Source: Paramecium tetraurelia (Eukaryota > Ciliophora > Oligohymenophorea > Peniculida > Parameciidae). From it: 64,000 nt of DNA. Each line of letters starts with the position of its first letter. The stretch's first letter is position 1. A program made the translations under genes and the position numbers. The stretch lies in the NCBI RefSeq assembly GCF_000165425.1, contig NW_001799289.1:187342-251341 (forward strand), in the 5' to 3' direction. Below the pieces are notes generated by a model. That model ran no database searches and was not told where the DNA came from. It worked only from the letters and a program-made list of their open reading frames with translations. This document shows positions 5,182 to 63,681 of this stretch, piece by piece.

Positions 5182-5973
5182 ATGGATAAGAGATTCAAAC
5201 ATACCCTTGTGGCATTTAAAATATGTCCTTATTGTATGAAGGTACTTACAATAATGTGCCATAAAAATGTTAAATTTGAAATAAAGTTTATTGAAATGCA
5301 TAATAAACCTGATTGGTTTACTAAAATTAGTCCTCTCGAAAAAGTACCTATTTTAATCATAGGTGAAGAAGGTATTTTAAATTTTCATATTTAAAGTTGT
5401 TTTATTTGAGTCAGCTGCTATAATGGAATATATCGACGAGATTACACCACCAAAACTAATGTCAGATGATCCAATACAAAAGGCTTTAGACAGAGCTAAG
5501 TTTGAGTATTCAAATGAGATCATTAAAAGCCTTTACTAATTCATCTTTTGTACAGAATAGGAAGTAAGTTCTTATTTAAATAAATAGAAATTTGTCAAAC
5601 TCAAAGAATGGATTATAAATAGACTCAAGCAAATGGAGGAATGGCTTAAAGATAAGAAATACCTAAATGGAAGCGAAATTTCTTTAGTTGATTTTAATTT
5701 TGTACCAGTGTTCGTAGTATTAAACATGCTGAAGCCCATTTTGCCTTGTGATATGTTGAAGGATTACAAGAGAGTATGAATGAGAAATAAAAATAGGTAT
5801 AAAATTATGGGGATTCCTTAACATCCTTGCAATGTACAAAAACAGGTCGAGTTCCAGACTATGAATTTTTGATGATCGACGGAATAAAAAATTAAAACAC
5901 AGTATTATTTAGATCTAACCCATGTTATTTTAATGGTCCTAAGCCCTCACGTTGTTGTTTCTTTAGCAAATGA
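5182..5973 (+). CDS. Glutathione S-transferase-like protein (CPYC type), 239 aa
   Basis: Three introns are removed: 5372-5396 (25 nt, ends AAAG), 5564-5587 (24 nt) and 5774-5796 (23 nt). The spliced length of 239 aa is typical of GSTs. The N-terminal thioredoxin fold has a CPYC motif at about residues 14-17, as in omega-class GSTs, CLIC proteins and glutaredoxins. It is followed by a cis-Pro motif (LEKVPIL) and the substrate-binding ESAAIMEYID. The C-terminal helical domain carries the usual LNGSEISLVDF helix-cap region. It is likely a glutathione-dependent transferase or thiol reductase in the cytosol. The first intron is needed to join the Pro loop to ESAA and has the rare AAG acceptor. Confidence 0.75.
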
Positions 5974-6128
5974 TAAATTTATTTTATTTTTTTCTTTTTA
6001 ATTTTGTCAAGTTTAGAGATAAATTAATGGATATGATGATGTAATTAAAAATTTGAGCATTTCTTAATTGTTTCTAATTAAAGAATGAAATAAAATAGTA
6101 AATAGTATTTGAATAATTTTATTTAATA

Positions 6129-6941
6129 ATGAAAAATAAAATAAAGTTTTTCTTTTCTCAATTGAAATTCAACCCAAACAAGAACTATTATCAAATTTTG
6201 AACTTAACAAATAAATCTACTTAGGAAGAAATCAAAACTGCTTATTATACCTTAGCAAAACTATATCATCCAGATAAAAATCCTGATCAAATTGACAAAT
6301 TTAAAGCCATAAATGAAGCATATGAGGTTTTAAAAAATCCATCAACTAAAAAAGATTATGATGAATCATAAGTTAATCCTCAATAATTTTAGAAAAAACA
6401 ATATGATCGATAATATCATTAACACTCAAGTATTAAATATTTCTAAATCAGCATATAGTTATTAATAGAGCGTAAATCATGAATAATTCAGAAGGATGTA
6501 TGAGGAATACAAAAGATAGCAAACTCATTATGAATATTAATATCATTCAAAAGCATCTTACGACAAAGATGATCCATTTAAGTAATACAAGAAATATACC
6601 TAAGAAGAATAATTTGTAAATATCCACAATTAAATTTATTTTAGGAACTTTATTCAGGTAGAGCAGCTACCATGAGATATTTAATGATTTTTATGTTGGG
6701 GATGGCTGGATATGTTTTTTTTGAGTTGTTTGGTTTGATAATGGAAAACAGATAAATTGTTGTTGTGGATCAGAACACTGGTCAATAATATGTAACTACG
6801 AAAGATGATTTCAGGAGAATATAATAAAAAACAAGAGAATAGATGGATTATGAGAGGAGAAGGGCAATTCTAAAATAAATTTAAGATGAGGAATTAAGAA
6901 TGATGAGACAAAACTAATAGCAGACTGAATTCAAAAAATGA
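6129..6941 (+). CDS. DnaJ-domain protein with one membrane segment, 253 aa
   Basis: Introns are at 6430-6451 (22 nt, CAG acceptor) and 6616-6644 (29 nt). A J domain occupies about residues 19-80 and has the diagnostic HPD in YHPDKN, preceded by the Ala/Tyr/Leu helix II pattern. A Gln-rich, Tyr-rich linker follows, then one hydrophobic segment around residues 150-170 ([17 protein letters not shown]) and a basic, Gln-rich C-terminal tail. It should recruit and stimulate an Hsp70 at a membrane. Another J protein with similar layout is at 18828-19808. The Cys-rich and C-terminal domains of classical DnaJ are absent. Confidence 0.85.
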
Positions 6942-6988
6942 TTGTTGTTTTTATCAACTCTATTATATATACAGTAAATTCTATTGAA

Positions 6989-8886
6989 TCAAGCTTTTTC
7001 CTCTTGATGAATGCAACTCATATGTCTGCTTCTTAAGAATTTTCCTAATTCATCATCTATTTGTTTAGTCAACTTAAAATTGATTGTCTTTTAACAGATT
7101 AAACTACTTTCATTATTCTCCATCTCATCTATGACTGTTCTATATGCCTTTTATAATATCCATTTAATTTACCTCCTAAAGCGAAGTAAATAACTCTTCA
7201 TTCGGAGTTTCTTCCTTATTTCTTATATAAGATTAGCGATTCTAATAGTCGAGTTCAATTCTTGAAGGTACATTATTCTCTTAACTTAGAGTAATGATTG
7301 GCTTTGGAGTGAAATTAAAGAGAATTTATTGTGGTTTTTATAGTAAAACGGATTTCAATTTTGAAATTTCTTATAATTGGTGAAGAATATTATGCAAATC
7401 CAATTCATTATTAATCTTCATCCTTTAAAATAGATGTATATAAAGTACATGGCTTTTGTAAAAAAGGATGAGTTAGTATTGTTGAAGAAATATCCACAAC
7501 TCAATTCATTTATTAGAATCTTCAAATTTAATTTGATAGGTTGTGATCTTTCCACCAATTTGTGAATGAATTATTTCCACTCTACTTTTTACAAGTCAGG
7601 ATTAGGTTGATTATTTAAGATAATGTTCATTTCATCTGGCGGAGTTGTTATTACTCCTAGATTTTAATCAAACGCCCCTTTTCTAACATAGGATCGATTC
7701 GTGACTTCTTTAAAATCGTATAATCTATTTGATAACTCTATTAACATAGATGTTCTATTATAAAATGCAATAAAGAATCCAAATATGACTTTAAAAATTT
7801 ACATGAAACCTCCTAAATATGATAAGAGATCACCAAGCTTTTCATAATTTCTATCTATAATTTCAGTAAAAGGACTTCTTCTCAAATAAATTGTTGCATA
7901 TATACTATCAGTGTTTCTTCCTAATTCAGTTAGATCTCTAAAATCTTCGGCTTTCCTCACAATTATTTCTTCCTTTTGAATATCTCTAATCATAAAGTTA
8001 ATTAATTACTCATAAGGTAATAGACTCAAATCATTATTAATCACATATGATCTATAATACACATTGGCTAGTCTTGATAGCTGATTTGGTACAAAGGAAA
8101 AGTACATATCACTATCTAAATACATAGTTTTATGGTCTTTAGCCTTTTACGGATTTACCATTGTATTTATTTGAAAAACTTAAAGCTTAAATTACCCATT
8201 TGCTTATAAATATTGCGATTTTGCAGTTTCATTAGCGCAAATCGGATTCCAATAGGTGGAATTAGAGTTATTTTGGCAATCTGACACAATAATTTTAATA
8301 AATTTAAAGGTTTCACTAGAGTAAGTTCCTTACAACTCCAAAGAATAGTTGACCCTAAATATATAATTCTTATACTTTGGACATAACCATTAATCCATGC
8401 CTAAGTAGTTAAAGGAATCATTAAAATTAGTATCAAAACCCTGATATTCAACGACATTATTAAATCTATTCAAAGTACAAGGTTCTAGAGGTATCTGCGT
8501 TGTAGATTTTTTAATAGTTCCATCCAAAGACCTTTCATATATTCTAGATCAATAAATTCTTACCTCTATTCCATGGTTATATTAAAAAATGGAAAATTGG
8601 TGTAATTGTTCTAATCTATTGATAAAGCAAACATTGCATTTTCATCACTCATTTTCATATAATTAGGATCATTTGAAAATGCTGTCTATGAATTGTAATA
8701 GACATTTGCTTTTGTAAAAAAGTCAGCAATGTTGGAATAGAAGATTAAACTCAACAAACAAATAATCATAATTGAAGAACATCCGCCAAATGAAGTTGTA
8801 TAATAAGCATTCTTATTCATATTAAGAGTGATAGTTTGGCCAAATATATCTATTCTTTACAGTCCTTTTTGAATGGAATAGAGCAT
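6989..8886 (-). CDS. Large two-membrane-segment protein, family copy A, 608 aa
   Basis: Three introns are removed: 8563-8544 (20 nt), 7448-7423 (26 nt) and 7172-7148 (25 nt); the last two end AAAG. One membrane helix lies near residues 28-52 (after the motif DIFGQ) and another around residues 340-365 (LLSYLGGFM then FGFFIAFYN). Between them is a domain of about 290 residues with conserved Cys. The C-terminal 240 residues are polar, with a conserved motif around INNELDLH. Helix, large loop, helix resembles the layout of P2X and ENaC/ASIC channels, but no sequence motif of those families was seen, so function is unknown. Copies B (9217-11162) and C (26586-28865) align throughout. Confidence 0.75.
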
Positions 8887-9216
8887 CTTTATTTAATTAT
8901 ATTATTATTTAACATAATAATCTAGGAAAAATCCTAAATCGAAATTTTCTAAAAGTGCAAAAAAGATATTTCATACTCTTTGATTAGATCATCTTTCAAA
9001 TATAGGATGATATATCGAATTTGATAGTTAAATTTAAGACTCTTTGTTAGGAAATATAAAAATTCTAAGACTACTAAATAAATTATTCAAATTTTATTTT
9101 GAATAATTTGGAGTTGAATAAAAAGTGTTGAATGAATATCATTAATGATATATTATAATTATACATTATATATCAAGACAAAAATTCTCATTAAATAGAG
9201 TCTTTAATATGTTTTT
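8887..9216. other. Intergenic between family copies A and B
   Basis: 330 bases of AT-rich sequence between two same-strand paralogues. No open frame with coding character and no repeat of note was seen. It should hold the 3' end signals of copy B's neighbour and the promoter of copy A. Confidence 0.5.
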
Positions 9217-11162
9217 TCATAATTCTGTTTCTTGATTTAAATTTGAATCTAATAATTTGAAAGCATTTCTTCTTTGTTGGAACGGTTGGATTAATTTCAT
9301 AATATCCTATCCAATGAGCTGAGTTAACTTTAGATTTATATTCGTTTAACATAAGTTGGTAGGATTCTGGTTTATTTCGTTTAAGATATCTTTGTAAGCC
9401 TAGATATTGGAAATTGATTACTTATTATAACTTAGAAAACAGTTCTTCATTTATATATTCCTCTTCAGATTTCTAAATGTGAGATATTCTCTTGCTATCC
9501 TTAATACTGAGCCTGGAAGGAATAACCTAATCAATGCCTAAAGTGATGATAGGTTTAGGAGAAAAGTTAAATAAAATTACCTAGGATTTTCTTAATAAAA
9601 CTTGTTTTAGTTTACTTATTTCATGTAATTAATAAAATATCGTGTGCAGATCCAATTCATTGTTTATCTTTTCACTAAATTAATAAAATCAATAAATTTA
9701 CATAGCTTTTTCTAAAAATTGAGAATTTTTATCTTTAAAACAAAATCCAAATGTTAATTGATTAATTAATAACTTAAAATTGAATTTAATAGGATCAGAT
9801 TTTTAAACCAATTTACCTAAATAATCCTTCCACTCAATATTTGAGAGATCTTGATTTTGGTTTTATTAATTTCCATTTATTTAAAATACGTCAACAGGAG
9901 ATGAGATATGTTCTATATATTAGAGAGTGTTAATCGTCTTTAATTTTTTGACATCCTTTTCATCTTTAAAATCATATAATTTGTTTGCCAACTCTATAAG
10001 CATTGAGGTTCTATTATAAAAGGCTATCAAAAACCCAAATAGAACTTTCATAATTTACATAAATCCACCCAAGTAAGAAAGTAGTTCTCCTATCTTTTAG
10101 AACCTTCTACTTACTATTTCTGTAAAAGGACTTCTTCTTAAATATACAATTGCATAATTATCATCTGTGTCTCTTCCTAATTCAGTTAAATCACGATAGT
10201 CTTCTGCTTTCCTCACTATAATTTCTTCTTTATCTATTTTTCTAGGCATATTATAAATTGTATTTACTCTAATGGTAATAAACTATTATCATTATTTATT
10301 ATGACATTTCTATAAAATATATTAGCCAATCTAGCCAATTTATGGGGAACAAAGGGAAAATACATGTCGCTATCAATAAAAATTGTTTTGTAATTTTCAG
10401 AATTTTACGGATTTATTACAGTATTAATTTAAATTATTTACAATTTAAATTGACTGTTTTCATTTAAGTAATTTTATCTATCCAAGTCAGAAGCACAAGT
10501 AGGATTCCACGAAATATTATTATTGATTATTTCAGAACTCTTACAGCTTTTTACAACGATTTTTAAAAATTTAAAGACTTCGCTCGAATATGTTCCTTCA
10601 AGATGATAAGTAAAGTTTTCTCTTAAACCTTATAATTCTATGCAATTACATTGGGCATAACATATTTCCAATTCCCTAGAAATTGAATTAAGTTGTGAAA
10701 TCTATTCCTTCATCTGAAAAAATATTATTAAAACGATCTAATGTACATGGTTGTAAAGGAATTTCTATAGTTTATTTGTCTATTGTACCGTTTAAATTTC
10801 TAACATATATTCTAAGTATGCTTATTAAAATCTGATTACCTTTGTTCTAACGAAATATCAAAGTATGGAGTTATAGTAAAATTAGTTTAATCTATTGAAA
10901 TCGCAATCATTGAATTCCTTTCATTCATTTCAATAAGTCCAGGATCATTTGAAAAAACAACTTCGCTTCCATGGTAGATATTTTGTTTTTAAAAGAATGA
11001 TATGATATTAGAAGAAAATATTAGACTTAAAAGGCATATTATTAGAATAGAAGAAATTCCTCCAAAAGATGTTGTATAAAGGTCATTTCTATTCATATTT
11101 AGGGTTATTGTTTGGCCAAATAGATCTAACTTTTATAAACCTTTTTTTAATGCAATTAACAT
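9217..11162 (-). CDS. Two-membrane-segment protein, family copy B, about 614 codons with one frameshift
   Basis: Introns fitted by alignment with copy A are 10839-10812 (28 nt), 10267-10242 (26 nt), 9701-9675 (27 nt) and 9421-9400 (22 nt). The DIFGQ-like start, the first membrane helix, the LLSYLGGFM second helix and the INNELDLH motif are all conserved. Around 10650-10660, just after LCPM, the frame must shift by one base to stay aligned with copy A (resuming around CIELQGLREN). The spliced length is 3n+1, as expected for a single extra base. No intron solves this. It is either a recent pseudogenising insertion or a sequence error. The remainder of the gene is intact, so I list it as a gene. 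Confidence 0.7.
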
Positions 11163-11699
11163 ATAATATAAATTATTTATGATAATCTACATATTAGAAT
11201 TCATTTCTCTATTTTAGGATAAAATATATGCTTTACAGCTTTTATTTTAGATGAACCTTAAATGAGTGATAAGCATGAGCAAATTCAAATTAAAAATAAT
11301 ATTAAGGTCATTTTTAGTCACTAGTTTTTAGAATAAAATGCATAACAAAATAGAGAAAGACTATTCATAGAAATTGTTTAATTTATCAAAGACAAATATC
11401 CCCAATATTAAAAAAATTTGAAAAAACAGAGCCTTTGTTTTAGTTAATTTTTAGTTCTAATTCTATTAGAATATATTAATATGTGATAAATTTAAAAATT
11501 TAAATGTTAGTTAAAAGGAATGGATTAATTATTGATTGAGAACTATTCTTAAATCAAAAGTTGCTCAAGATTAATGGGCAATTTCATTCGTTATTATAAA
11601 ACTTGAACTAATAGTTCTAGTAGCTGATTAGATGCAATCATTAAATTATAATATAATTATTATTATTATTAAAAACAATAATAGAATTGTAGAAAAAGC
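11163..11699. other. Intergenic between divergent genes
   Basis: About 540 bases, extremely AT-rich, between copy B (minus) and the kinase gene (plus). I found no coding-like frame or structured RNA. A short run of TTA/ATT repeats occurs near 11656-11672. Confidence 0.5.
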
Positions 11700-20165: not shown

Positions 20166-21285
20166 ATGAATTAAAGACCAAAATTCTAATTAGAAAACTC
20201 TTTCCTCACCCATCCTCTTCCCCTTTCTTGTTGTATCCTAAATAAATTTGAAACTCAGTAATGCATTTCATGATTAACATTTAGAATCATTACTGCAGGT
20301 TACGATTAAACATGCAGGATATTCAATATTGAAAGTGGAGCCAAATTAAACGAAATGTAAGGACATAGTAATGTAATCCAATGTATTGAAATCGATTAGA
20401 GCAAAGAGTATCTAATTTTTAACATCATAGTGATCTAATGGCAACAGGCTCGTTTGATCACACCATCAAATTATGGAGACCCAAATCAGGAATTTGTGTT
20501 GAAACACTCAAAGGACATGATGCTGAAGTCATGTGTTTATCATTTGGCCACAATAATAAATTGGCTTCTGGTTCAATGGATTCAACTTGCAATGTCTATG
20601 ATATAGAAAAATTCAAAATTTTACATACAATCAAAGATCACAAGATTTCAATTGTTGGTGTCAAGTTTCATGATTCTAATGTGTACACTGCTTCCTTTGA
20701 TGGATAAATTTCAGTATGATACCTTCAATAATAATAATAATAGGTAAATGATACCAAAACATTTAAGCAAATTATTAAATTACAAGATGACAGCAAAGAG
20801 ATATTCTAAATGACTATAGATCCTTAAGGAAAGTATCTTGGAACTATTAGTGGGAATAAATAATGCAAAATCTGGGATCTTAAGCACCTGAATAAGCCTT
20901 TATATACATTGACAGGACACACTTAAGATTTGACAACATTTACATTTGATTAATAGGGAACTAGAGTTTTGACAGGATCATAAGATTCAACTGTAATTTT
21001 ATATGAAGCTTCTACTGGTAAGATGAGTTAAAGGTTTTATGGTCACACAGATGAAATAGTCAAAATTGTTTATACTTAGAAACACGAGGTTCTTACAGCT
21101 AGCACTGACAAGACTGCTAGATTATAGTATTAGTTTCAAAATTATACAATAGCACAATAGATGGTGTTTGCTAATAGATTTTTGAGGGATAAGAGGACGG
21201 ACTTATGACTCTTTTAGTAGATTCAAAAGGAAAGATAGTAATCACTGTAGGAAAAGATTCAACATGTCAAGTGTGGAGATTATGA
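20166..21285 (+). CDS. WD40 protein, divergent relative of DAW1/ODA16, 339 aa
   Basis: Four introns are removed: 20258-20284, 20408-20430, 20714-20743 and 21133-21152. The product is a seven-bladed beta-propeller made almost entirely of WD40 repeats. Blades show GH..D and TGSFDHTIKLW-type ends (for example MATGSFDHTIKLW and ASGSMDSTCNVYD). The first blade, FLTHPLPLSCCILN then ITAGYDQTCRIFN, resembles the entry blade of the dynein-arm adaptor DAW1 (ODA16), whose clear homologue is at 32046. The N-terminal helical domain of DAW1 is missing and several WD dipeptides are lost. It could be a specialised paralogue or a generic propeller scaffold. Confidence 0.75.
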
Positions 21286-21373
21286 TATATTTTATATATA
21301 AATGCTAATTTACACAAATTCAATATATCTGTAGTTTTCAATAAAAAATACAATTTTTCTGGTGGAAGTGGGA

Positions 21374-23852
21374 ATGAAGCAATAAACTTAGTTATAGTAT
21401 ATCATAATCAATTCATTTTCATTGTTAATAGCTATTTTATTATTTGGAATGGAATTATTTAAAAAATAGCCTATTTATGTTAATCGTGTGGGTGCCTTAA
21501 TATTATGCTTACTAAACATGGAATTAGTGTTTGAAGAGATTTCATCAATAAATACAATTTAGTTGGTAATATTCATTGTAATATTAATTACATAATTTGA
21601 AGATGAAGAAAAATGGCATAAAATCGTCAAACACTCTATTATATTTTACATATTTTTGAGGACGCTTTTACAATACAAAAACTTGTTTAGTATAACTTAG
21701 TTACTGACATATGTATTATGGCAGCCTATCAACCATTGGATGTTGTACTATAAGAATTAATTGAGAATAAATCAATTTAAGAAATAATCGCTTGATTTAA
21801 GTAAATGTCAGTCTGAATTAACTCCGTAATTGTGTAAAGAATCTTCAGAGTTAGAAGAATAATGCAGCAGCAACGTTTAGGGAAGTTCGAAGTTATCTCA
21901 AAATTTAAAGAAGTTGAAATAACTTTATATGAATAATCCATTTTCCCAGATGGCAGATTTCGATTAGAAAACCTTTTCTTAATTTTAAAAATAAACTTCA
22001 ACTTTGGATGTTCCATAAATCTGGAATTTGTTGCCTTTTGGCATTGCACTGATTACCAGTAAGTTTGAAATATTGACCTACAATTAAAAATTATTATATT
22101 TTTTAAAAGCGTCAGATAATGATGGAAGAAATATCATATTAAATTTGGATTTGTTATTAGAAAGGTATATCAATTAACATAATAAGTCCTGAATCTTGGG
22201 AGAGCAAATCCGTACATAATTATGGCTCACACTGTAGCAATCGTTAAAGCAGAAGATTTCAAACAAAAAGATAATTGTCCCTAATTTCCAAAAGTAATCA
22301 TGAGTAGAACTCAATAAATCCAGATGGTGGAACTCATTCTTAAATCAATGCAAACTTTGCCTTCATTCCAAATACTTCCAATTAGATTAGAGATGAGATT
22401 CTGACTACCAAATCAAGATATCGTAATCTAGATTAGTTGTTTAAGAAATTTGCCCTGAAATAATATTCATTAACCAATAATAATAATGGAGATTGCTCAT
22501 TATAATCTATAGGTCAAAATATTCAGATAATAAAAAAAGTATAGGACATAGATTCTAAGAAATACTATTTCAGAATCAAAGTATATGAAATAGACTCTAT
22601 TGGAAATAAACTCAATTACTTATTTGTGATAGAAAATATTACAAATAAAGAAGAATTACGCTAATTAAGTGTAAGATACAAATTTTAATAAGTTTTGCTA
22701 AATTCTTTATGTCATGAATTAAGAACTCCAATGAATAGCACCCTATCTCAACTGAATGCATTAACATCCTTAATTTCACCTTAAATTAGAGATAAGAATC
22801 TCACTCCTGCCATAATCTCTGCCAAAAAGTTGATGTTTCAATTAAATGATATTTTGGACTTTGCACAAATAGATTGTAAGAATTTTCATTTAGTGAATTC
22901 ATAATTTGAATTGAAGGAAATATTTGAATTATTAAGAGAACTTTTTGAATAAGAATGCAAAGAGAAAAACCTTTAATTTATTCTAAATTTCTACCATATT
23001 AAAGATGATTAAAATATCTATAGTGATAAGGAACGTATAGCAAGGATATTAGTAAATTTGGTGGACAATTCCATTAAATTTACAAATGAAGGTGGAACTA
23101 TTACAGTTACAGTCTAACAAGAAAATCATTATATTCTCTTTTGTGTTTTGGATGATGGAGTTGGTATTTCAGATAAAATCTTAACTAACATTAAAAGCAA
23201 TAAAGATTTCTAAATGTAGGATTAATATCATCAAAATGAAACTAAACTTGGTTTGGGTTTGAAAATTTCTTAATAAATTGCAAAATTTTTATGTGTTGAT
23301 AAAGAACTCAAAATTGAAAGCAAAGAAAAATAATTTACTAAAATTTCATTCAGAGTAGATTCTAATTATAAATATTTAAATCATTTAAAACTCCCCTTAT
23401 TTTAAGGTTGTAATTTTCATATTAATTGTGATTGTATATAAATCTTAAATGTTGATGATGTTAGATTTAACCACAGTGCAATTGAAGCTCTCTTGAGTCA
23501 ACACAAAATCAAGATGGAAAGTGCCTATAATGGAGAATAGGCTATTTAAATGATCAAGAAAAGATTAGACTAAAATTGCTGTAAGACTTATAAATTAATA
23601 TTCATGGATATTGAAATGCCAATCATAAATGGATATTAGGCTTCAAAAGAAGTAATTTTCATTATAACATTATAGATAACAACCATATTAAATAAATTTA
23701 ACTTAACAGACTAAACTGTTATAGTAATGTGTTCAGCTTATAATGGATATGAAAATAATAATTAAGCAAAGGCTTGCGGAATAAAGGAAGTGCTTCCAAA
23801 GCCTATTGAACAAAAATAACTCAAACAATTACTTGACAAATATTTATTATGA
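21374..23852 (+). CDS. Membrane hybrid histidine kinase 1, 810 aa
   Basis: Introns are at 22165-22186 (22 nt, AAG acceptor) and 23652-23675 (24 nt). About five hydrophobic helices fill residues 10-145. A PAS-like domain begins at [10 protein letters not shown]. The H-box is CHELRTPMN with His440. HATPase motifs follow: N-box ([14 protein letters not shown]), G1 (DDGVGIS) and G2 (KLGLGLK). A receiver closes the protein ([18 protein letters not shown]). This is a full phosphorelay sensor with its own receiver. It sits 19 bp upstream of histidine kinase 2 and shares its layout, so the pair is a tandem duplication. The ligand and the downstream phosphotransfer protein are unknown. Confidence 0.9.
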
Positions 23853-26585: not shown

Positions 26586-28865
26586 TCAAGTGCTATCATT
26601 TTATTTTTCAAGATCTTATTTAATTAAACTCCTTTTCTAAGAAAGGGACGATTTTAATTTTTGATGGTATTTGGCAAAAGGTCTGACATCTTAATCAATT
26701 TTTTGACAAACTTAGTAAATTAATTCTAATTCAGCCCCCAACATTGAAATAAGTTGCGAATTTAGAGTTTCAGAAGATGATCCAGGTTATCTTTTGACAA
26801 TTTCTTCATATGCCTAAATTATAGTTTCCAATGTTACATTATAGATTTATTAATACACATAATTATTAAGAGGTTATGGAATAAAACTAGATCTCTTCTT
26901 CTTTCTGATTGATTCATGATTCATTCCAATTTTATTTTATCTTTTTTATTTCATCATCATTCTTGCATAAACTAACATCTCTTCTTTGCTTGATATAATA
27001 AACAAACATTAATACTTATCTTTAGGTGTTTTGAGTTAGTTTTCCACCATGTTTCTATTGATTTTAAGATCCTCTTCTTCTAATGTAATTAAAGGCTTTG
27101 GAGTAAAATTAAACATGACCAATTACTTGGGTGTTAATAATACTTCTTTCAATTTATCAATTTCATTCAGCCTTGTCAACAATGAGTATATGTCTGATTG
27201 TTGAATAATTTAATCACTTAAAATTAATAAACTAAATACTATGCTTTATTCATTAATTAGACCTTTGGAATCTTACTAAATAACATGCCACATGTAATAA
27301 AATTAAAAAATATTTTTAGATCTAGATTTATTGGTTTCTTTTTCTAAAACATTTTTTGTAATTAATTTTAAAAATAATCTAATCCAGATGAGCAACATAA
27401 TTTAGTTGATAATTCTAAGGATATAATATTTAATAACTTTAGTCTTATTTAAGTGGTTATGTCTAACTGTCAGTTATTCTAATTTCATTATCTGCGATAA
27501 TAGCCTATTACATTTTTTGGTATATTTAGGAATCCTGGGCATTATTGTCATTAGCTTAAGTTTCAACCAGAATTTAGAGATTGTCTTGATATATTTTCTT
27601 TTGGTCTGAATCATCAATGCTAAAATCATATAGTTTATTTCCCAATTCTACCATATCTAGAGTCAAAAATAAGAAATACAATTGATTCTATTATATATAG
27701 TTACAAGTAGTCCAATAAAGAAGGAGAATATCTATAGAATACCTCCAATATTGGAAAGTAATTCATCTATTTTTTGATATTATCTCTAAAATTTAGTTTT
27801 GAAAGGCTTCTTGCGAAATAACAATTTAACAAAAGAGTCTTCAATAATCTCTGTGTAATCTTATTGTACATCTGTTGGGTCCAATACATAAAAAGATCTT
27901 TCTTCAAACATACTAAATTTAATAGTATAATCAATTAACCTTATAGGAAGTAAACTTTCGTCATTAAGAAAATCAAATTTAGTAATGAAAGCATTAATAG
28001 ATTTAGTAAAATTGATGTTGAAGGAAAAAGAAAATGAATCATCTATGAACGGTTGAACATAAGATTCTTTAGGTTTATAAGGGTTTATAATCTAGTCATA
28101 TGTGTGTTGATTACTTGATTGACTGTGAGTAATTTAATTTTGAATGTATGTTAGTCAGATTCACGACAATTTGGTTTCCATTGATTAGTCGAATTATTTT
28201 AGCATTCTGAAACTGACAGATCAATAAATTGAAACAAAGTGCCTAATAATTATTGTCAAACAAGATATTTACTTGATTAGGTCCCTCCAATTTGAATTTC
28301 TGAATTTATCCTAATATATATAACAATTATATCAATACGATGGGCACAGAAAGTTCTATAATTGAAGTTATTAAAATTATTAATGGAAATTGACATTGTT
28401 TTCAGCAAAAATTTAATTAAAACGATCCAGTGTACATGGAACTAATTCTATTGGTTCAGTCTTCTTTAAAAGATCTCCTTATTAACTACGAGAATAAACT
28501 CTATGATATAATAATAGGCTACTTTTGTTTCAAAGTTATATTAAAATACGGGTTTTCAATAAAATTATCTTATTCGATCTAAACAGCGAATAAGAAGTTA
28601 GAGTTATTAAAAGCAATTTGATCAACTTTATCATCGTACTCTGAAATTGTAATTACTTTCAACTATTCTTTCTATATAAAGGTAATAAAATTTGTGATGA
28701 AAATAGTCATCATAATCGCCATCACGCCAATGGATGCACAACCTCCTAAAACGGTCTTATAATAAGCTTGCTTATTTATCCTCAAGAACACCATTTATCC
28801 AAAAATGTCCAGTTTTGCAATACCTTTGATAATATATTAAAGTAACCTGCTAATACTGAAACCAT
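26586..28865 (-). CDS. Two-membrane-segment protein, family copy C, 694 aa
   Basis: Eight introns were fitted by frame and by alignment with copies A and B: 28846-28824, 28522-28501, 28338-28311, 28272-28243, 28114-28092, 27679-27657, 27437-27415 and 27239-27217. The first and last end in AAG. The family marks are present: a DIFGQ motif, a first membrane helix after it (GGCASIGVMAIMMTIF), Cys residues in the loop, a second helix (LLSNIGGILQIFSFFIG), and a region equivalent to the INNELDLH motif. The C-terminus is longer than in A and B and is Lys/Gln-rich. The start is inferred from the match of MVSVLAGIAKLDIFGQ with copy A. Function is unknown. Confidence 0.7.
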
Positions 28866-29834
28866 TACTAAATAATTATGTTATTTTTTATATTATTCTT
28901 TGCTTTAATTACGTAAGCAAAGGCACAATTAAAACAATGGATTATAAAATATTTTGACAATAAATGATATCTCCTCTTATAACATTCCTCCTAAAATAGA
29001 TTAATATAATGAAACAGAATACTTAAGTTGCGAAAATTAATAGAAATCATAAAATATGATTTTATCATAAGAAATAACATATATTAAACGAAATATGAAA
29101 TTAGATCCATGGTTGCCAGACTCCTCTATTAATATACTTATTTAAATAAAATAGATGATGATATTTAACATTACAATAAAGAATACTGATTGTAATGTAT
29201 ATATAAATGAGGGAATAAATTTAATAAAAGCATAAGAGATTAAAATATTCATATTATTTTGAATAAACATTTTTTTATTTTAATGGTCAATTCATTGATA
29301 ATAAGCTGGCATGCAGCAAATTGATTTATAGAACAAATGAGTTAATACAAATATGAATTATTTAAAAAAATTAACACTTTAATGATTTAGATAATATAAA
29401 TTAAAAGGTAAATAGAAAATGTAATAGAGCTAAATTTACTTAAAAAAGCACCAATAGAGCTAGGTTTTAATCTATAGTATGATAATACTGATAGCAGAAT
29501 AAAATTATGATAATTCTGCCAATAATACTTTTATTCAAAATAATCTATAAATTAGTTAATTAAAGAAATTTAGATATTGTTTTAAAAACCCTAAACATTC
29601 CTTTGGAATGTCTTAGACATTAATTCAAAACTCTGATATCCACAAGTTAGGAAGAATATACAAAAAAAATTATGATTTACATCTTATCATTAGTATCTAT
29701 TCTAAAAATAAATCAAGGAATCAAATATCTGTCTCTTTAGCATTTTTTATAAAACAAACATTTATAAAATATCTTCTTATCTATAAATATCTTTAAATAT
29801 TATAAGTTCAAAGGAAGAATAAAATCATAGCGTA
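28866..29834. other. Intergenic, nearly featureless AT-rich DNA
   Basis: About 970 bases, one of the longest gene-free stretches here. I looked on both strands with the ciliate code and saw only short, low-complexity frames. No repeats, RNA genes or promoters were recognised. Confidence 0.5.
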
Positions 29835-41027: not shown

Positions 41028-42044
41028 TCAAACAAAACATCCATAAATCCATTTCCCTTGTAATATTACATTCTCATCTTGAGACAACGAACCCACTCCA
41101 TGAAAGGCATCCAAAGCGAACCCTCCAACGAACTTAAACTCTTCTCCTCTACAGTTGAAAGTCATTACTCCTTGACCATGGAACTATCCATTTCTGAATT
41201 CTCCCTCGTAAGAAGTGAATTAATGTTAAACTAATTTAAACTACTTAAAGTTTAACAATTTGAATTCATCTTCTTAATAATCTTGATTCACAAATCTTCC
41301 TCTTCCTGAAAATTGATCACTCTACCATTAACCCTAATATACTATGTTCGAATAAAAGTCTTTCAAAGTTCCATTACCCTGTCTCATTCCATTAACCCAA
41401 TCACCCTCATAAACAAATCCATTTTCATATACTTTTCTACCTCTGCCATTCTAAACATCTTCTCTTATGGTAATGTTGGATTTCTTGAATTTCCCCACAG
41501 ATGGTGTTTTACTAGAAGTTCTATGATGACAAATCATCTTGTCTTGCAATCTCGAACTATCGATTGGAGAGTGGGTAGTGTGGATCGTATGTTTAACAGA
41601 ATTCATATAAGATTGCAATGTATGTTAACTTATACAATTTGATTACTTATTGGATCTTGAGGGTCCACTTAAGTAATATGAATATGATTCTACTGAGTCA
41701 GTTTCTGTCTTCTTAAGTTGAGATCTTAATTAGTCATTCTTTTCCATTATATGAGCTATCTTTTTTTCTAAAAAACTCAATTTGCTTATTGTTTCATCAA
41801 GCATGTCTTCTTACTTGCTCTTCTTTCTCTTAAAATAGGTAATTTATGAAGTTGGGGATTTAGGCATCGTAGATGGTGGTAAATTATGAATAACAGCTAT
41901 TTTATTATCAATGCATCTAAATGGACTTTGTGAGGTGCTTGGTGAATGAACTCGCAATAGACGAGTAGTTTGCAATCTGCTAGGTGTTTTACTAGCGATG
42001 TTAAGTTGATTTGGTCTTCTGTTCTCTTTTTAAAATTGTTTCAT
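41028..42044 (-). CDS. MORN-repeat protein, 338 aa
   Basis: A single intron-less frame from ATG 42044 to TGA 41030-41028. The N-terminal 200 residues are Ser/Thr-rich and include a short coiled coil (LDETISKLSFLEKKIAHIME). From about residue 205 come MORN-type repeats: GRGRKVYENGFVYEGDWVNG, then GQWQSDQFSGRGRF, then YEGEFRNGQFHGQGVMTF, then GKWIYG. MORN repeats typically bind membranes or build ciliary and cortical scaffolds such as radial spoke heads. It ends only 16 bp before the start of the Dpy-30/GAF-like gene on the same strand. The two could be parts of one ancestral gene, although each frame reads as complete. Confidence 0.8.
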
Positions 42045-42097
42045 CAGTTAATTTTTATATTATTGTCTACTTATAGAAAAAATGTATAATTAATTAA

Positions 42098-44748
42098 TCA
42101 ATTTTTAAGTCGAAGCATCATATGCCTTTTCACAGAGTAGAAGGATGGAGGCACATTCGGTTTAGGAGGTCTGGTCGATTTTTAAGACTCTATAATACTA
42201 TTAAAGTTTTTCGATAGATCTGTTATTAGTGGTTCTTCTGATTTCTTTGGAGCCAAGAAATGTTATGGTTTGACTTTCAATCCTAGTTGCTCCAAGTTCG
42301 TTTAAGTATTTAATTTATTCTTCACATTGATACCCATCTATTGCAATAAAGGAGGTGTTGTTTAATGGGATTTGGATTGCAACTTTTTTTGATCCTTAAG
42401 TTACTTGTTTATGGTAATGTTGCTTCGTAACCTTGTGTGTTATTTAAACACATTGTAATTTGATGTATTAAAGGATTGAATAGGGAATTAGATGTCTTCC
42501 TCTGTGACTTCCAAGTTTGCAGTGGATGGTCTCTATAAAGTGGTGTGCATCAACTATTGTAATGGTTGGAATTAATTAAGATTGTAATCCTCCTAAAACA
42601 CAAGGGTGGCTGAATTCTGTCCAGTAGCAAAGTTGGTGATATAATTAGTAATTTTGGTAGACTTCTTGGATTATGAATTAGATGAGACTTTTTTGATAAT
42701 TGAATTCTGGGCAGACCTTGAAGGATTATTAAACTTCTTTTCACTTTTTTATATGCTGAGCATGATGGATTGTTGTGAAGATTACTATTATTATTGTTAT
42801 ATTCTTGGACTAAATCTTTATTCTATTTTGGACTTTGAAACTGGTTGCATGATTGAAATCATTGGTTTTTCTTTATATCTAGATTTGGTTAGGTCTTCTG
42901 ATAATAATAATTATTATTTTAGGTCTTCCAAATAAGTTTCACTTCCATCATCATCAGAGGAATCAGACTCTTTCTCGGACACTGATATATTCATTTTATC
43001 AGCATCTTGTTTAAGTTCATCAAATAGATTAGCAAACTTTGTATTTTGAAATTATTAATAACATTAATCTTCTTAATAGCCAGTGAAACTTCTTTTTTTA
43101 TTGAATGACGAATTCTTTAGTTATCGATTTGATCTTTTGGTCTCATCATTTTTTTGATTGTATATGACATCCATCTCACTTTGCATCTCCACTAATTCAG
43201 TCAATGCCTCTCCTATTATCCATCCCATCTATATCCAGTGTTTGCATGTGAATTCAAAGGTCTAAGTTGAATTATAATAACTCCCATTGGATGATTCTAT
43301 TGTAAAACAATTCACTATGTCATACAAGTCTAAAAACACTCCTCTGGCTGTTGACTTCTTCGATTGACTGATTCTGAATATGGAAGAATAGTATCGAAAC
43401 ATCTCTGTCTTCTACCCCAATAACTTAGCCAACACTCTACACTTATAATAATTGTAATTCCACAATGGATATTCAGGACCATAAAGAAATACATTCTTTT
43501 TTACTTATATATTTGTTATTCTTACCAGAATGACCGTGCAGATCTATGAATCCAATGAGATTGTTCCCAAAAATACTGTGCTACTCTTTCACTAATCTTT
43601 TCATCGCCCATACTGTAGGAAACAGCATCTGATCAGTCAACTTAAATCTGCGATTCAAATCTTTACCAGCTATCCCTGTTCTATAATTCCCTAAAATCAC
43701 CCCATCAGGATTCATCATAGGTACAACCTTTATTACACACCTAAATCATAATCAATAATCAGTACTTCTTGATCAGTTTCAATCCCTACTGACTAGACAG
43801 GAACTCTAATAATCCTTACATAACCCAAGAACCATTCGATTCACCAGGGTGGATCCGAGCTTAAATTATCATACATTTTTGGTTCTAATTATTGTTCCCA
43901 TTGCTGAATGTGTAGAGAGGTAATTGTATTCCACTTAAAGATTCACAAAATACTGTTTTTTCAACATGGTTACAGTTTTTTTGCATGTTCAAACAAAATT
44001 CAAGCAATTATGTGTATGTGTATGGTACACAATAAGCAACCTTTATAAGCTCATTATCTCCATTGCAGACTAATTTAAAAGACAAGCAATTATAATGTTA
44101 ATGATAGTGAGTTTTATATTGCATTTATTCTCCTCCCTACTACCATTCAGGATTTGTTGATCTCCACAAATACGGTTTCATTCCTCTTTCATAAAGAGTA
44201 CGTGATTTGCGAAAATTACATACATTTAATTGAATAGTTTCAGCTTTCTTCATTCCTGTGACTTCAAAGTTGTACCATGAAGTATGTCCTTTAGTGTTAC
44301 CATCTACTCTCATATACAAATCGTATTCTGTTTCAGAACACTTGACTACAACATCCAAATTACCACTCTCAAAAGTTGAATTGAAGATGATTCTACTGCT
44401 TAGGTTGGGATTCATGCCTAGAAATGGTAATTGAGGTTTTCTTTGCAATATTTTAATTTATTTGAAAGGATAGGATGAGCCATTGGAGTATTATTTATGC
44501 ATCTGGCCAGTGTCTTATGGTCTGAATCCAAGATAGACTAATTGATTGTTGTGTAATGCCTTGGCAATAATTGAGTCGTTTAAGTGATTGGCAAAGTTGA
44601 GTGTGAGTAGTTTACTATAGTCAACTTTTGGAGCCCATCCAAGAAGCATGTCATTCTCCAGGCTGAAGCTATGATCTGTAAGAGTGATGGCCTTAGGAAT
44701 TTGATTAAGGAACGGTTGGATGTTCAAATCAACATCCTAATTTAACAT
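42098..44748 (-). CDS. Cytosolic carboxypeptidase (CCP/AGBL family), tubulin deglutamylase, 867 aa
   Basis: Introns are at 43765-43741 (25 nt) and 43525-43504 (22 nt, AAG acceptor). The N-terminal CCP domain shows SRIIFNSTFESGNLD, WYNFEVTGM and RSRTLYERGM-like text. The M14 catalytic core follows: HPGESNGSW (zinc His and Glu), NPDGV then YRTGIAGKDLNRRF, the second-half zinc His in DLHGHSVKKNVFLYG, and the general-base segment FTIESSNGSYY. Such enzymes remove Glu from tubulin side chains or C-termini and act on axonemes. After the domain there is a 380-residue Ser/Gln/Asn-rich tail with no domain. The tail ends near the start of the MORN gene; the two are 53 bp apart. Confidence 0.92.
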
Positions 44749-44791
44749 ACTATAATAAAAAGTATGAGGAACTGTCAAAATTTATTCAATC

Positions 44792-45196
44792 ATGAACTAG
44801 GGTAGATTATCAAATTTCAACAATTCAACATTAAAAAACATCTCACAAGTATGCAGGAACAAGAAATATAATAATATTTGGTGTACGGACAGAGGAGAGT
44901 ATTTATATGTGAAGTATGATCAAACATCCATGATACCTATTTTAATTCAAAGAAACCAAGATTTAAATAAGAATGAAGACTCTATTCGACTAATAAGTAT
45001 ATCTATTGAGTTCGATTGTTAGATGTCTAGATTTATCAAAATCTGGTTGGTAGGCAGATCCAACACAAAATCTTATTTTCAAAAAGAAATAATCTTAAAA
45101 GAATATGAGCTAAATTCGCTAAATTATTATGAAGTTAACTCCAAGACATAAATTATGACATTGACAAAGTTTAAAGAAATAAACTTTAAAATATGA
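44792..45196 (+). CDS. Hypothetical protein or gene remnant, 134 aa
   Basis: An open plus-strand frame from ATG 44792 to TGA 45194-45196, only 43 bp from the divergent start of the carboxypeptidase. The composition is protein-like over its whole length (start MNQGRLSNFNNSTLKNIS; later SRFIKIWLVGRS). Just beyond the stop another frame continues with coding character (CDYKFSHLIKMAGILISSN), hinting that the gene once continued and is now broken, or that an intron was missed. No domain was recognised. Confidence 0.35.
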
Positions 45197-55200: not shown

Positions 55201-58200
55201 TAATTAGTACTGTGTAATCTTTTGTCTAAGATCATTCATCTCTCTAACATTATTCTATTATTATGATTCTAAGAAGTTTTTCCTATATGTTATTTCTTCA
55301 ATGATATTTGACTTTTCCTATAATTCTCTATCTAAATCATTTATCCTCTGAGTTGAAGAAAAGGTAGTTTATTATTATGATTATTTCTCAATTTATTTCT
55401 ATTATTGTTCGATCAGAACTTATAATTCTTACATTTAATTCTAAACAGGCATATACATTTATTGTAAAGATTATATTTATAAATTCAGACTTCTAATCTC
55501 GACATTCTATTGTTCAGTTTATAATTAGAGGTTTTTATTTTGAAGAATCTTTTCTTGCAATTTTGAATTTAAATCATTAATTTATTTATCAGCCACTAAT
55601 TAATTATTTTTAGAATCTTCCTCAGAACATTGTGATTTATTTAATCTTTGTAAGTTTTACAATGAAATATTTAACAATTTAACCTAAGATTGCAATTACT
55701 ATTTTTCTCTTTCTAAAAATACTATTGTTTTTCATGTTAAGCTTACTGTTCTTGTAGTTATTATTTCAACTATTAGTATGTCTTTTCTAATTAGTTGACC
55801 TTTATAGCATAATCTTCATTTCTTACTAATAGCTTGTTACTATCCATTATTATCCTATTTTATTCCTATTCCAGCTATCTTTTCTCATTTTCTAAATTAT
55901 CTATCTTATCAAGATATAAACTTAATTATTTCTATTATTCCTCATATTTCTTCTCTAATCCATTTTTCTTTTGCTACTAGTTTTCATAATTAGAAATTAA
56001 TTAATTTTACTCTTAAATTTTATTTTGTAATTCTACATTTTATTATTTTAATTGTTAATTCTCAAATGATACAATTTAAGAAGTTTAATCTTGCTTCAAT
56101 TAAAATACTCTAACTTCGGAATTTTATTTAACAGTTACCAACTATTCTTACTTTAACTTCATCTATAATTCTAAAATCTGTTATTCTTAAGTTTAATTTA
56201 ATTCATTTATTACAGTTATATTTTTTCTTAGTTCTCTATTTTAATCATTTAGTCTATCTATTTATTGATATAACTCAGAATGCTCTTATTATAATTGATT
56301 TATTAATTGCGTTTATTACGTTTTTGATGATTATAAATTTTCTAATTATTAGTTCATAGCCTTTACTTTTGAATTAATTTAATCATCAAATGATACAATA
56401 TTTATTTCTTTTTTCTTCTTTTAATTTATTTCTCTCTCTAATTTTTCCTAATTTTATTATGAAGATTCTAATGCCTTTTGAACGTATTAAAGTTTAAGAA
56501 TTAATTCACTATTTTCATTTTTAACTTAATTCAAACTCTGAATTGTTCTAGTTAAATCATTTTATAGACTTTATTTATCTTAATTAAGTAAATCTACCTA
56601 ATTTCTTAATCTAATATTAGTGTCAACTATTTCTGAATTCATTTTCTCAATGAGTTTATTATCAGTAAATGATTCCGAAGACTATTGATGAAAGCATGGC
56701 AATTTATTATTCCCATTTTCCATTAAAAACTGAGATTCTCCATTCCAATCAACTTCAGATTTTTCCTATCTGCTAGACTCTGATCTTTTGCTCATTCTGT
56801 GTATAGAACTTTTCATTGTTTATTAATGAGAAACAGCAATTTATTTAGGTTAGATATTCTTTTATTTATTTTACAATTCAATTTTTAATTATTTGATCAA
56901 TTACTATTAATCCTAGATTACAACCATGGATTACTCCTTCAAATCCAACTTTCCTTTAATTAATTTATTTTCTTATTTTAATTTAGCAATTTCCTCTTTT
57001 AAATATATTATAGAATTATCCTTTTCCTCATTAATCATTTAGAGATTGTCTGCCCTTTCTTAAAATTCATGTTGATCCATTAGTTGTACCTATAATTTTT
57101 CAAATTCACTTAATAGTTGTTAGGCATATTCTCTTTATTAATCAATAACACTGTCTTTCTCTAATAATTTTTATTGAGTTTAGGACTTTAATTAATTAAT
57201 TTCAGCATTCTTTTTTACTAATAAATCATTTAATGCTATGATTTAAACATTAAAATCCATGATTGGAAATTCTAGTTTTTAATTTAAATTTGATTATTTC
57301 ATATCCTCTAATTATTAAGTCAACACATCCATTTATTTATTATAATGATTTTATAACATCTAAATTTAAACATTTTTAACCATACTCTTTTATTTAGTAG
57401 CCTCCTCTGCATCCTCTTGCAATTGCTTATATTAATTAGTTACTATTTCGAATTATTGTTTTAAATTTTGCAATTCATTTATTAAACCTGAATTTTGTGA
57501 TGTCTATTATTGTAATCTCATCAATTATATAATTAAATCTTCATTCAATTTCTATTATTCTTTCAATCTTTCATTCCAAGTTTAAACTTCCATTTCTTAT
57601 GCTTCTGCTAATTCATCGCATCTTTCTCTTTCTTCCTAAATTTATCGTTTCTGAATAGTGATTCTTTGATTTAGATTTTCAATCTCTTTCTTTGCTTCTT
57701 AATCTTTTTATCCCAACTTTTTATTCGCATTTTATAATTATAATTCCAACTCATTAATTCTTTTCTATAATTATTGTAACTTCTGCTTCAATTCCAATAT
57801 ATAACTCTTCTAATTTCCAATTTCAATATCTTTCTCTTTTAATTAGAAATCATCAATCACTTGTAGATCATTTTTCTATTCATTAATGATTTTTAATTCT
57901 AAAACAACTTATTTATATAATGTTTCCACTCTTGATAATTCTGACTATAATTTTATGATCTCTGAATCTTTATCAGCTTGAGCATTTAATGATTCCTTGT
58001 TCTTCTAATGACTCAAATTATAGACTTACTATGCTTCAAGCTGAGATAGCTTCAATTATTCCTTGATTTATTTTCCTTCTCTTACAGAATTATCATACTG
58101 CTGTTACAATTAGTCAATTTTAGTTTATAAATTATAGATCTCCTTTTTATGGGCTAAATTTTATTAATTGATCACATTTAATAACTCTAAAAATCAAGAT

Positions 58201-60477: not shown

Positions 60478-61530
60478 TCATTATTATTCAGCAGCTCTTC
60501 TGGTAGCCAATCTTTCTAATTCATTGACTAAGACTAATTCTTATCTTCTTCCTGCAGTGACAGCTTCATATTCAACATCGAAACTGTGACATAAATCAGC
60601 AGCGTCATCCCATAAAGTTTAATTTCTCTATCTTTTGTTAGTAGCAGCTTAAGCAACTGCGGTTTAGGTTGAAATTGTTCCTTATAAGTTTTCAGCTTTG
60701 CTACTTAAATGAGTCTTGGCATCGTCAAGTCTAGCTTATGAACTAAGATAAAGATCTTTTTGTTATGCGAAAAGACCCAAAGCAGTAGTGTTATCTGCTG
60801 TGTATGATGCCCAAGCTTCTTCAACTGTATTTCTCAAGGTTTATAACAATTAGACGAGTCTTTCAGCTGCACCTTCTGAATCTTCTTCTTAAGTAATTTA
60901 AGCCAAAGCACCAATGGCTTACATGAATGTCTTGTTCATTTTGGTAGCAATAGCCGATTTCATTAATTTAGTTGTCATCTCAGCAACTTAAACCAATGAA
61001 GCTTTGCCCTTAGCTAGAGCAGTAGCAAGATCAATGGAATCATCAATGGCATTGATGGCATCGTTGAAGGAAACAGCTCCTCTGTTGTAGGATTGAGTGT
61101 CTTCCTTTCTGGCATCATTAATTAAACCAATGTGTAGAGAAACTGTATTCAAAATATTTTCGGTTTCTCCAAGAGTTGCTTAAGTTTTTTTCAAAAGGAT
61201 GGTGGCTGTCTTTAGAATACCATTGGCAATTTTGAGTTTGCCATTGGCATCTTCAACTTCAAGTTTTCTGTAAGAGATCTCACTATCGCATTCAGTTTTT
61301 TATGCGTTGTAGACATCGTCATGTCCACCTTGTTCTTATGCGACTGCTGATTTAAAGGAATTAAGGATTCCCTTGATTGAATCTAGTGGTGAATGGGTTT
61401 TAAGCTTATTTTCAACTTCAACCATGATGTTCATGATGCTTCTTTTACCACCATATTGTAGTGGGTACTTTTACATCAAGCTAGCATTGCTAATGGCTAA
61501 GACAACCAAGATTGTGAATGCAATTTTCAT
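60478..61530 (-). CDS. Trichocyst matrix protein, 350 aa
   Basis: A single intron-less frame from ATG 61530 to TGA 60480-60478. It begins with a clear signal peptide (MKIAFTILVVLAISNA). A helical protein with regular Ala, Lys, Glu and Asp follows, for example around KTATILLKKTQATLGETE and RLDDAKTHLSSKAENLQ. Its C-terminus has RNQTLWDDAADLCHSFDVEY, a hallmark-like block of Paramecium trichocyst matrix proteins. These are made as precursors, cleaved, and crystallise in the exocytotic trichocyst. Base composition is richer in G and C than in the neighbours, as expected for a highly expressed gene. Confidence 0.9.
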
Positions 61531-62379
61531 ATATTAATAATTGATTTTTTCTTATTTTCGAAAGTTCCTTATATACCACAAAATCTTCAGATTAAAAACG
61601 GATTGTGGCAAAAAAAAAAAATAATAATTTATTAAAAATTTGATTCTGTTTATAAAATTAAAAAATTAATTTTTTAATCCACGTATTTTGATTAATTAAT
61701 TTTTCGAATTATTTTCTTTAAAGAATTAATATTTATGAACTAATTTCTATTAACGGGAAATTTTTAGATATTTAAATAATAATAAATAATGGGAGAAATA
61801 AAATATTCATAATTAATTTCTATAACAGCAGTAAATAACCGTTAAGGATACAAACTATGATATATGCCGAAGAAATAGATGAACTCTTATTTGGAATGAA
61901 TTTTTAACGATTCATTAATTTTTTATTTGATTTGAGAAATTTCTACAAATTACAAATTATAAATTTATATAATATTCGGATCAATATGTTAAGAAAGAAG
62001 AATGATTATGTCATAAAAGCTGATATATATAAATTAAAGTTTGTATTTAGTTATTTCAGAAATAGAAGTCTATTATTGATTATTTATTAAATGCTTCATT
62101 CACTTCTCAATCTTTCAATATTTTATATTCATTCACATATGGAATTAGTATCTTTTCAATTTAAGATTTTTTACATTAATTATAATGTAGGTTGGTTATA
62201 TTTAATTTGATAGAAAGTTTAGCACCTTGATTATTGATAAATTATATTATTTAATCATGAAAAGAGCAACTGATGGGAACTATTGTAACTATATGAACTA
62301 TATTCTTAGATGAAAATGAATACATTGCTAATTAGGAGGATAAATTACTTGAGAAGATGAGAAAGAAACAGGTATGATA
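61531..62379. other. Intergenic between divergent genes
   Basis: About 850 bases, very AT-rich, between the trichocyst gene (minus) and the coiled-coil gene (plus). An A/T homopolymer tract (10 A) sits near 61611-61620. A short frame near 62260-62340 precedes the coiled-coil start but is broken by TGA and is not called. Confidence 0.5.
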
Positions 62380-63681
62380 ATGTCTAAAAGAGAGGAACGA
62401 GAATTGGAGCAATTAAAATTATATGAGTAATAGTAAAAAGAATAGGAAAGAAGAAAAGTCACTCTCTTAGAATCCACTCGTTCAAAATAACAATAAGTAG
62501 AGTTGGCCTTGAAGGAGAAGAGATAAATGGTGAGTATATATCATAATATAAATCTTCTAGATAGAATTGAAGAGAAAAGAAAAAGAGAAGGAAAAATTGC
62601 TTTAAGTGTAAAAGATGGAATAAGAAAAACTTAAAGAATTGACGGAAAGGGAAATCAGCAGAGATTTTGTTATATAAGAATTACATAGCAATAAACATAG
62701 TTAATAAGGAGTAATTCTAGATAAGATTAAACCATCTATTGTAAAAAAGTAATAGTATAATTTACGTAAGAATAGCTGAAGGAATAATAAATACATAATA
62801 AGAGGAAATATTAATAAAGAAAATTGAGTTGGACAAATTAAAGAAGGAATAAGAGGAATAGATATAAGATTTGAGAGAGAGAAAGGAATTGTTGTTGAAA
62901 GAATTGAAGTAAGCAAAAAGAAAACAATTAAAAAAAGTGAAACAAAGAAATGAAGCAGAATATTAAGCATAATATGAAGAGAAGAAACAAAAAATAGAGT
63001 AATATAAGAAAAAGTTAGATGATATTGAACTGAATTAATAAGTTAAAATTGAATTGATTGAATAAAAAAAAAGGGAGAAGATGGAGAAATTAAAAAAAGT
63101 GATGGTGTATTTATTATATTGATTTTTTAGGAAAATCAAAAAAAAATAATGGAAGAAAAGAAAGAAAAAGATAAATAAAAACTTTCACATTTAGATGAAA
63201 AGATTAATTAGATTTCTGAAAGAATGAAATCCACGGAAGATAAAATGGAGAAAATAGAAAAAGAAAAGGCAAGACATAGATAAAATGTATAATTCTATTA
63301 ATATTTAAGATTAAATCTAGAAATGGCAGTATTCAAAATAATAAATCATAAACATATAAAGATAAGATTAAATAAAAGGAACAAGAGCATTTAAAATCAA
63401 TTACAGAAACTTATTTAATTTCTAAACTCAAATAGTAATAAGAAAAACTAAAAAAAGAAGAACTCATTAGGGATCACAAAAAGAAGGCTGCGAAAATATT
63501 ATAAGAGATGGTAGAAATTAAGGATAAAAAGTTAAAAGAGAAATTAGAAAAAGCATAATAATTTAAGGATGAAAAAGAATAATTGTTTGTGCAATATCAA
63601 CAACTAGCTAAAGAAATTGAAAAAAGGAAAAACAAGCTACTTTTTAGCAGTCCTAAACATAATATTGTAGAAGATAAATGA
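62380..63681 (+). CDS. Highly charged coiled-coil protein, 397 aa
   Basis: Four introns are removed: 62530-62560 (31 nt), 62749-62770 (22 nt, AAG acceptor), 63099-63130 (32 nt) and 63287-63309 (23 nt, AAG acceptor). The spliced frame opens MSKREERELEQLKLYEQQQK and is nearly all Lys/Glu/Gln coiled coil with long single-helix-like stretches, ending LLFSSPKHNIVEDK. Both AAG-ending introns are needed to keep the frame. Composition resembles microtubule- or cilium-associated helical proteins, but no family motif was seen. Function unknown. Confidence 0.7.

Follow-up and report, generated by a model that had tools for sequence, protein, structure and literature searches.

Introns that end in AAG recur in the 64-kb stretch of DNA analysed here (C167:187342-251341, hereafter the window), which lies within a 69.07-Mb genome of 231 contigs, and they very probably belong to the ordinary major class of GT-AG spliceosomal introns, in a macronuclear genome of the Paramecium aurelia type where the base before the AG, at position -3, is loosely fixed. 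A first-pass annotation had listed 13 such segments, holding that their removal is needed to keep the frame, that they are supported independently, and that their share is higher than a simple TAG rule would predict. All 13 coordinate pairs are GT...AAG segments of 22-28 nt (13/13 inside the 20-30 nt range), and for 12 of them a GT...AG intron is present at the matching junction in a paralogue elsewhere in the genome. Between paralogues the -3 base turns over among T, A, C, and G, and the AAG share is equal inside and outside the window. The recurrence of AAG, the need for removal, and the independent support were thus borne out, but a special share was not. Judged from sequence, the spliceosome is predicted to use these junctions, and turnover at -3 would be close to neutral.

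Frame, homology, and paralogues at the AAG junctions

None of the 13 segments has a length divisible by three (0/13), and once all 13 are removed, the gene models have one terminal stop each. These models, which contain 88 introns in the window, were built with a scoring bonus favouring the 13 segments. Protein homology supports two of the junctions directly, as the first-pass annotation had anticipated. In the DAW1 gene, where excision joins NSTG to TRLVT, residues 2-416 align to Dynein assembly factor with WDR repeat domains 1 (5mzh), and the alignment has no gap where the junction falls; in the cytosolic carboxypeptidase-like gene DLHGHSVKKNVFLYG aligns to DLHGHASKRGCFMYG of 8v3m (cytosolic carboxypeptidase-like protein 5), ungapped across HSVKKNVFLYG.

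Introns in this genome measure about 25 nt, reading frames are long when TGA is taken as the sole stop, and paralogous blocks form two layers, one of C6 matches at 74-88% DNA identity and one of C220 and C30 matches at 64-74%. Intron size, stop code, and block layers fit a Paramecium aurelia-type macronuclear genome, and the two layers are presumably linked to whole-genome duplications. C6 partners are not universal, as none was found for window positions 43000-45000. Each of the 88 window introns was compared with 26 fetched loci (2,288 comparisons) by searching for its two 30-base exon flanks with a free gap and no requirement for GT or AG. This yielded 55 matches from the exons alone; in 51 of them the best-scoring boundaries coincided exactly with GT...AG, and the same search with reversed flanks yielded none in 2,288 comparisons. 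Of the four others, the weak matches for 17928 and 32411 (41/60 each) lacked an intron; those for 52283 (41/60) and 62534 (47/60) ended differently, and the latter result puts the predicted intron at 62534 in doubt. Introns identical at a given junction were then merged and one cross-family match (9675 to L039) was discarded, which left 48 paralogue introns covering 34 window introns, with T at -3 in 29, A in 13, C in 3, and G in 3.

At least one TAG copy was found at 9 of the 12 AAG sites with paralogues (5372, 7148, 22165, 27217, 28824, 33133, 43504, 62749, and 63287); the site at 7423 gains a TAG counterpart through an in-window paralogue, and those at 33944 and 36176 are AAG in the single copy seen. 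Conversely, 7 of the 27 paralogue introns at the 22 covered non-AAG window introns end in AAG, and exchange is therefore bidirectional. Intron length also differs between copies (28 vs 23 nt at 33133, 25 vs 24 at 5372, and 23 vs 24 at 28824). Within the window, three related genes (6989-8992, 9188-11276, and 26586-28985), taken to be the copies A, B, and C of the first-pass annotation, share intron positions. One intron, at a common alignment column and phase, ends AAG, TAG, and AAG in the three genes, in agreement with the earlier claim that A and C match B, and another ends TAG, AAG, and TAG.

Introns were scored with an ab initio gene model that covers both strands, treats TGA as the stop, uses a codon-position Markov model, and represents introns explicitly; its starting weights at -3 were equal for A and T and equal for C and G, and its training set for expectation-maximisation comprised the window, 16 stretches of 10 kb each, and four paralogue stretches (29 kb in total), 253 kb altogether. 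A posterior above 0.8 defined a confident intron. Nine of the 13 sites reached at least 0.861. The AAG introns are as follows.

5372-5396, forward strand: GST-like gene (model 5182-5779); posterior 0.99; TAG introns at that junction in C6 and C220; GST_N profiles cross the junction.
7148-7172, reverse strand: gene 6989-8992; posterior 0.97; C220 intron TAG, exon identity 42/60.
7423-7448, reverse strand: gene 6989-8992; posterior 1.0; C220 intron AAG; in-window paralogue introns 9675-9701 (TAG) and 27217-27239 (AAG) at equal column and phase.
22165-22186, forward strand: gene model 20166-23852; posterior 0.999; AAG in C6 and C220, TAG in C30.
27217-27239, reverse strand: gene 26586-28985; posterior 1.0; TAG in C220.
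28824-28846, reverse strand: gene 26586-28985, GTT donor; posterior 0.115; 24-nt GTT...TAG intron at that junction in C220, exon identity 47/60.
33133-33160, forward strand: DAW1 gene (model 32046-33512), GTT donor; posterior 0.861; 23-nt TAG introns in C41 and C66, AAG in C6.
33944-33965, forward strand: predicted membrane protein (model 33665-35665); posterior 0.042; excision lets frame 0 continue in frame 1; the 22-nt intron recurs unchanged in C6, where the exons are 55/60 identical.
36176-36203, forward strand: MFS transporter (model 35978-37596); posterior 0.002; 25-nt AAG intron in C6, 44/60; MFS_1 match 12-252 crosses the junction.
38132-38156, forward strand: putative intron in the NDUFB7-like gene (model 37934-38240); posterior 0.001; twin CX9C restored; match to 7tgh_B7.
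43504-43525, reverse strand: cytosolic carboxypeptidase-like gene (model 41028-44841); posterior 1.0; TAG in C220 and C30, GAG in C226.
62749-62770, forward strand: gene model 62257-63681; posterior 0.97; AAG in C6, TAG in C220 and C30.
63287-63309, forward strand: gene model 62257-63681; posterior 0.997; GAG in C6, TAG in C220 and C30.
2174-2197, reverse strand: additional AAG intron, absent from the first-pass list; posterior 0.84.
10622-10649, reverse strand: additional AAG intron, absent from the first-pass list; posterior 0.94; TAG in in-window paralogues 8355-8375 and 28311-28338 (equal column and phase).

The GTT donor is thus present in 2 of the 13. The first-pass list was incomplete, as the last two introns show; 55709-55746 also scored as an AAG intron (posterior 0.85) and is doubtful at 38 nt.

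The site at 38132 is the one for which no paralogue intron was found among the 26 loci. Excision restores a twin-CX9C protein, as had been claimed for the nine-residue spacing, and the best solved relative of this protein is the NDUB7 chain 7tgh_B7 (E = 2.2e-5), which we take to belong to a Tetrahymena structure. The junction is crossed by a weaker match to an NDUFB7 chain, 9f5x (E = 0.0033; residues 7-74). Since the profile search gave no Pfam family match for the protein and the 7tgh_B7 match runs mainly through residues 8-45, the second CX9C rests on spacing. Frame and CX9C spacing are what argue for the predicted 38132 intron.

Some further observations concern these genes. A tRNA-Ser with anticodon CGA is found at 38275-38357 on the reverse strand, just beyond position 38240, where the model of the NDUFB7-like gene ends, with similar sequence at many places in the genome. 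The 22 nt at 33944-33965 are unchanged in the C6 copy (L035), whereas the exons on either side carry several differences. Gene model 20166-23852 joins what we read as WD-repeat-like and histidine-kinase-like sequence and is probably a modelling fusion of two separate genes.

Share of AAG acceptors and the base at -3

AAG acceptors outnumber CAG acceptors both among the 69 confident introns of the window (TAG 51, AAG 12, CAG 5, and GAG 1) and in the total of 256 (TAG 193, AAG 46, CAG 11, and GAG 6), in which AAG accounts for 18.0% (Wilson interval 13.8-23.1%). The 187 confident introns outside the window comprise TAG 142, AAG 34, CAG 6, and GAG 5, and without the four paralogue stretches they comprise TAG 116, AAG 30, CAG 5, and GAG 3 (AAG 30/154). 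An excess of AAG specific to the window can be rejected (12/69 vs 34/187, Fisher p = 1). The 16 stretches were chosen by hand rather than at random, and five of them are on contigs matched by a search for a TAG-ending motif, which, if anything, would bias the sample towards TAG.

Noise among these calls was gauged with decoy acceptors. With composition-only weights at -3, the model called TAG 180, AAG 49, CAG 11, and GAG 7 of 247. When AC was allowed to compete with AG, AAG was called 42 times vs 6 for AAC, TAG 163 vs 6 for TAC, CAG 11 vs 1 for CAC, and GAG 6 vs 0 for GAC, from 5,320 AAG, 3,765 AAC, 3,933 TAG, and 2,887 TAC candidates. Runs with TG, GG, AT, and CG+AA as decoys gave 14, 14, 8, and 16 confident decoys alongside 37, 39, 36, and 28 AAG calls. 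Per these decoys, about 6-9 of 42 AAG calls would be noise, and the AC run corrected for candidate numbers suggests some 16% AAG. The overall AAG share is about 15-20% of introns.

The first-pass expectation that this share exceeds what a TAG rule predicts did not hold up, as the rule is not strict. T occupies -3 in 193 of the 256 confident introns and another base in 63, and GTA..TAG introns make up 72.3%. In the available text of PMC5663052, the share of P. tetraurelia introns matching GTA..TAG is only 77.4% for those whose retention is invisible to nonsense-mediated decay (NMD) and 69.8% for those NMD-visible, which leaves 22.6% and 30.2%, respectively, outside the motif; a strict TAG rule is therefore not the known rule. 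The available parts of PMC12862383, PMC5663052, PMC5485702, PMC5014332, and PMC9505925 yielded no separate AAG share for Paramecium, and we do not claim that the figure is unpublished. Relative to positions -6 to -9, T is enriched at -3 (1.67), with A at 0.45, C at 0.47, and G at 0.42. AAG is the leading minor acceptor because a mild preference for T acts on introns rich in A and T, whichever background is used.

The 3' splice site is very probably one with a fixed AG and a weak preference for T at the preceding base. With intron composition at about 40% A and about 45% T, such a weak preference leaves A as the commonest alternative and gives roughly 15-20% AAG, and point mutation converts AAG to TAG and back while the intron is kept.

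GAG acceptors and Prp18

One intron ends in GAG in the window and in three paralogous copies.

62372-62394, forward strand: GAG intron common to four paralogous copies; posterior 0.985; the aligned junction is GAG in C6, C220, and C30 (L050, L028, and L051).

The copies are 23, 21, 23, and 23 nt long, lengths that rule out retention in all four, and the C220 and C30 introns contain no other AG. In the C6 copy a TAG occurs two bases before the GAG, yet it is not the in-frame site. Similarly, the C226 copy (L025) of the 43504-43525 intron ends TTAGAG, and of the two possible splices only the one at the later GAG keeps HSAKKNAFLYG. The predicted GAG acceptor kept in four copies is a mildly unusual by-product of the analysis. 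In the available text of PMC10711555, yeast without Prp18 activates, among other sites, a GAG two bases beyond the normal one; a missing Prp18 as a cause was rejected here, as the Prp18 profile PF02840 matches the genome at two places, on C167 and C6. We consider it possible, though rather doubtful, that the readout at -3 approaches 'T or anything', with A, C, and G about equally tolerated once composition is allowed for, GAG conserved, and an upstream TAG passable. If this is true, the readout of a pyrimidine, by which CAG and UAG outrank AAG and GAG elsewhere, would be reduced to a preference for U, with Prp18 still present.

Alternative explanations and comparison with known systems

Several results weigh against the AAG segments being ordinary introns with a loosely fixed -3 base, and some of them bear on the possibility that many AAG calls are artefacts of coding sequence, assembly frameshift errors, or a wrong choice among neighbouring AGs. 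The low-posterior sites (4/13: 28824-28846, 33944, 36176, and 38132) rest on homology rather than on model score, and near 38132 the model favoured other introns (38097-38116 at 0.695 and 38132-38163, also ending in AAG, at 0.173). The intron at 33944 is identical in its single known copy, in C6, as coding sequence might be, and so provides no length evidence. Confident AAG calls, 49 at first, fell to 42, 39, 37, 36, or 28 in the five decoy runs and TAG calls from 180 to 133-163, and decoy AAC is called at about 1/7 of the AAG rate, or 1/5 after correction for candidate number. The paralogue loci were fetched around the 13 sites, and the presence of 12 AAG junctions among the 34 covered introns is by design. 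The equality of C, A, and G at -3 depends on the background, since position -4 gives about A 0.8, C 0.5, G 0.3, and T 1.3. Interior AGs are not clearly depleted (AG 71 vs GA 120), as the control pair is nearly as skewed (AC 117 vs CA 180), and in 236/256 introns no AG that ends at or beyond +18 comes before the acceptor; we draw no conclusion from these AG counts for or against a first-AG scanning rule. NAG at the exon start, found in 1/256 introns, is probably scarce as an artefact, as NAGNAG pairs divide the posterior to below 0.8. The gene model is weak on short genes and membrane-protein genes, and its calls are noisy. However, an intron is present at the equal junction in a paralogue for 12 of the 13 sites, several with another length or acceptor, and protein alignments run ungapped across the DAW1 and carboxypeptidase junctions, and we regard a largely artefactual origin as very improbable.

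Slightly less probable still is a distinct class of AAG introns maintained for some purpose, such as regulated introns or ones spliced inefficiently. In the accessible part of PMC5663052, weaker splice signals are tied to retention caught by NMD, with GTA..TAG at 69.8% in NMD-visible vs 77.4% in NMD-invisible introns, and here AAG introns have fewer lengths divisible by three (3/46 vs 31/193 for TAG, p = 0.11) and slightly less upstream pyrimidine (0.54 vs 0.57, p = 0.09), neither of which is significant. Yet none of eight features tested differs significantly between AAG and TAG introns, including mean length (25.0 vs 24.8 nt), GTA donor (43/46 confident AAG introns), -4 base, and flanking exon bases. 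A distinct sequence class was rejected on this ground. That 9 of the 12 sites have one or more paralogues with TAG also argues that AAG is not kept. It is extremely improbable that internal eliminated sequences persisting in a macronuclear assembly account for the segments. Such elements can have a similar length, and the genome resembles that of a ciliate, but the elements are bounded by TA...TA, whereas these segments start with GT and finish with AG, and GT...AG introns are found at equal places in paralogues.

If, as we favour, AAG introns are ordinary introns and non-TAG acceptors are commonplace here, AAG should carry no heavy penalty in gene finders built for genomes of this kind, because our own model gave low scores to three AAG introns supported by paralogues (28824, 33944, and 36176). 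Paralogue pairs in which a shared junction ends TAG in one copy and AAG in the other also offer a ready set for measuring the cost of the -3 base.

As far as the available text of PMC5663052 and PMC5485702 goes, the short introns of P. tetraurelia are alike in their length of about 25 nt, GT...AG ends, weak splice signals, and GTA..TAG share (69.8-77.4% vs 72.3% here). The human order of 3' splice sites given in the accessible portion of PMC11802449, CAG > UAG > AAG > GAG, shows that AAG and GAG exist at lower rank there too; unlike in human, UAG comes first here, AAG is about four times as frequent as CAG (46 vs 11 of 256), and GAG accounts for 6/256. In yeast, where the YAG consensus is policed by Prp18, AAG is the most used alternative acceptor, as PMC10711555 describes, whereas here AAG and GAG are predicted to be main acceptors despite the Prp18 matches.

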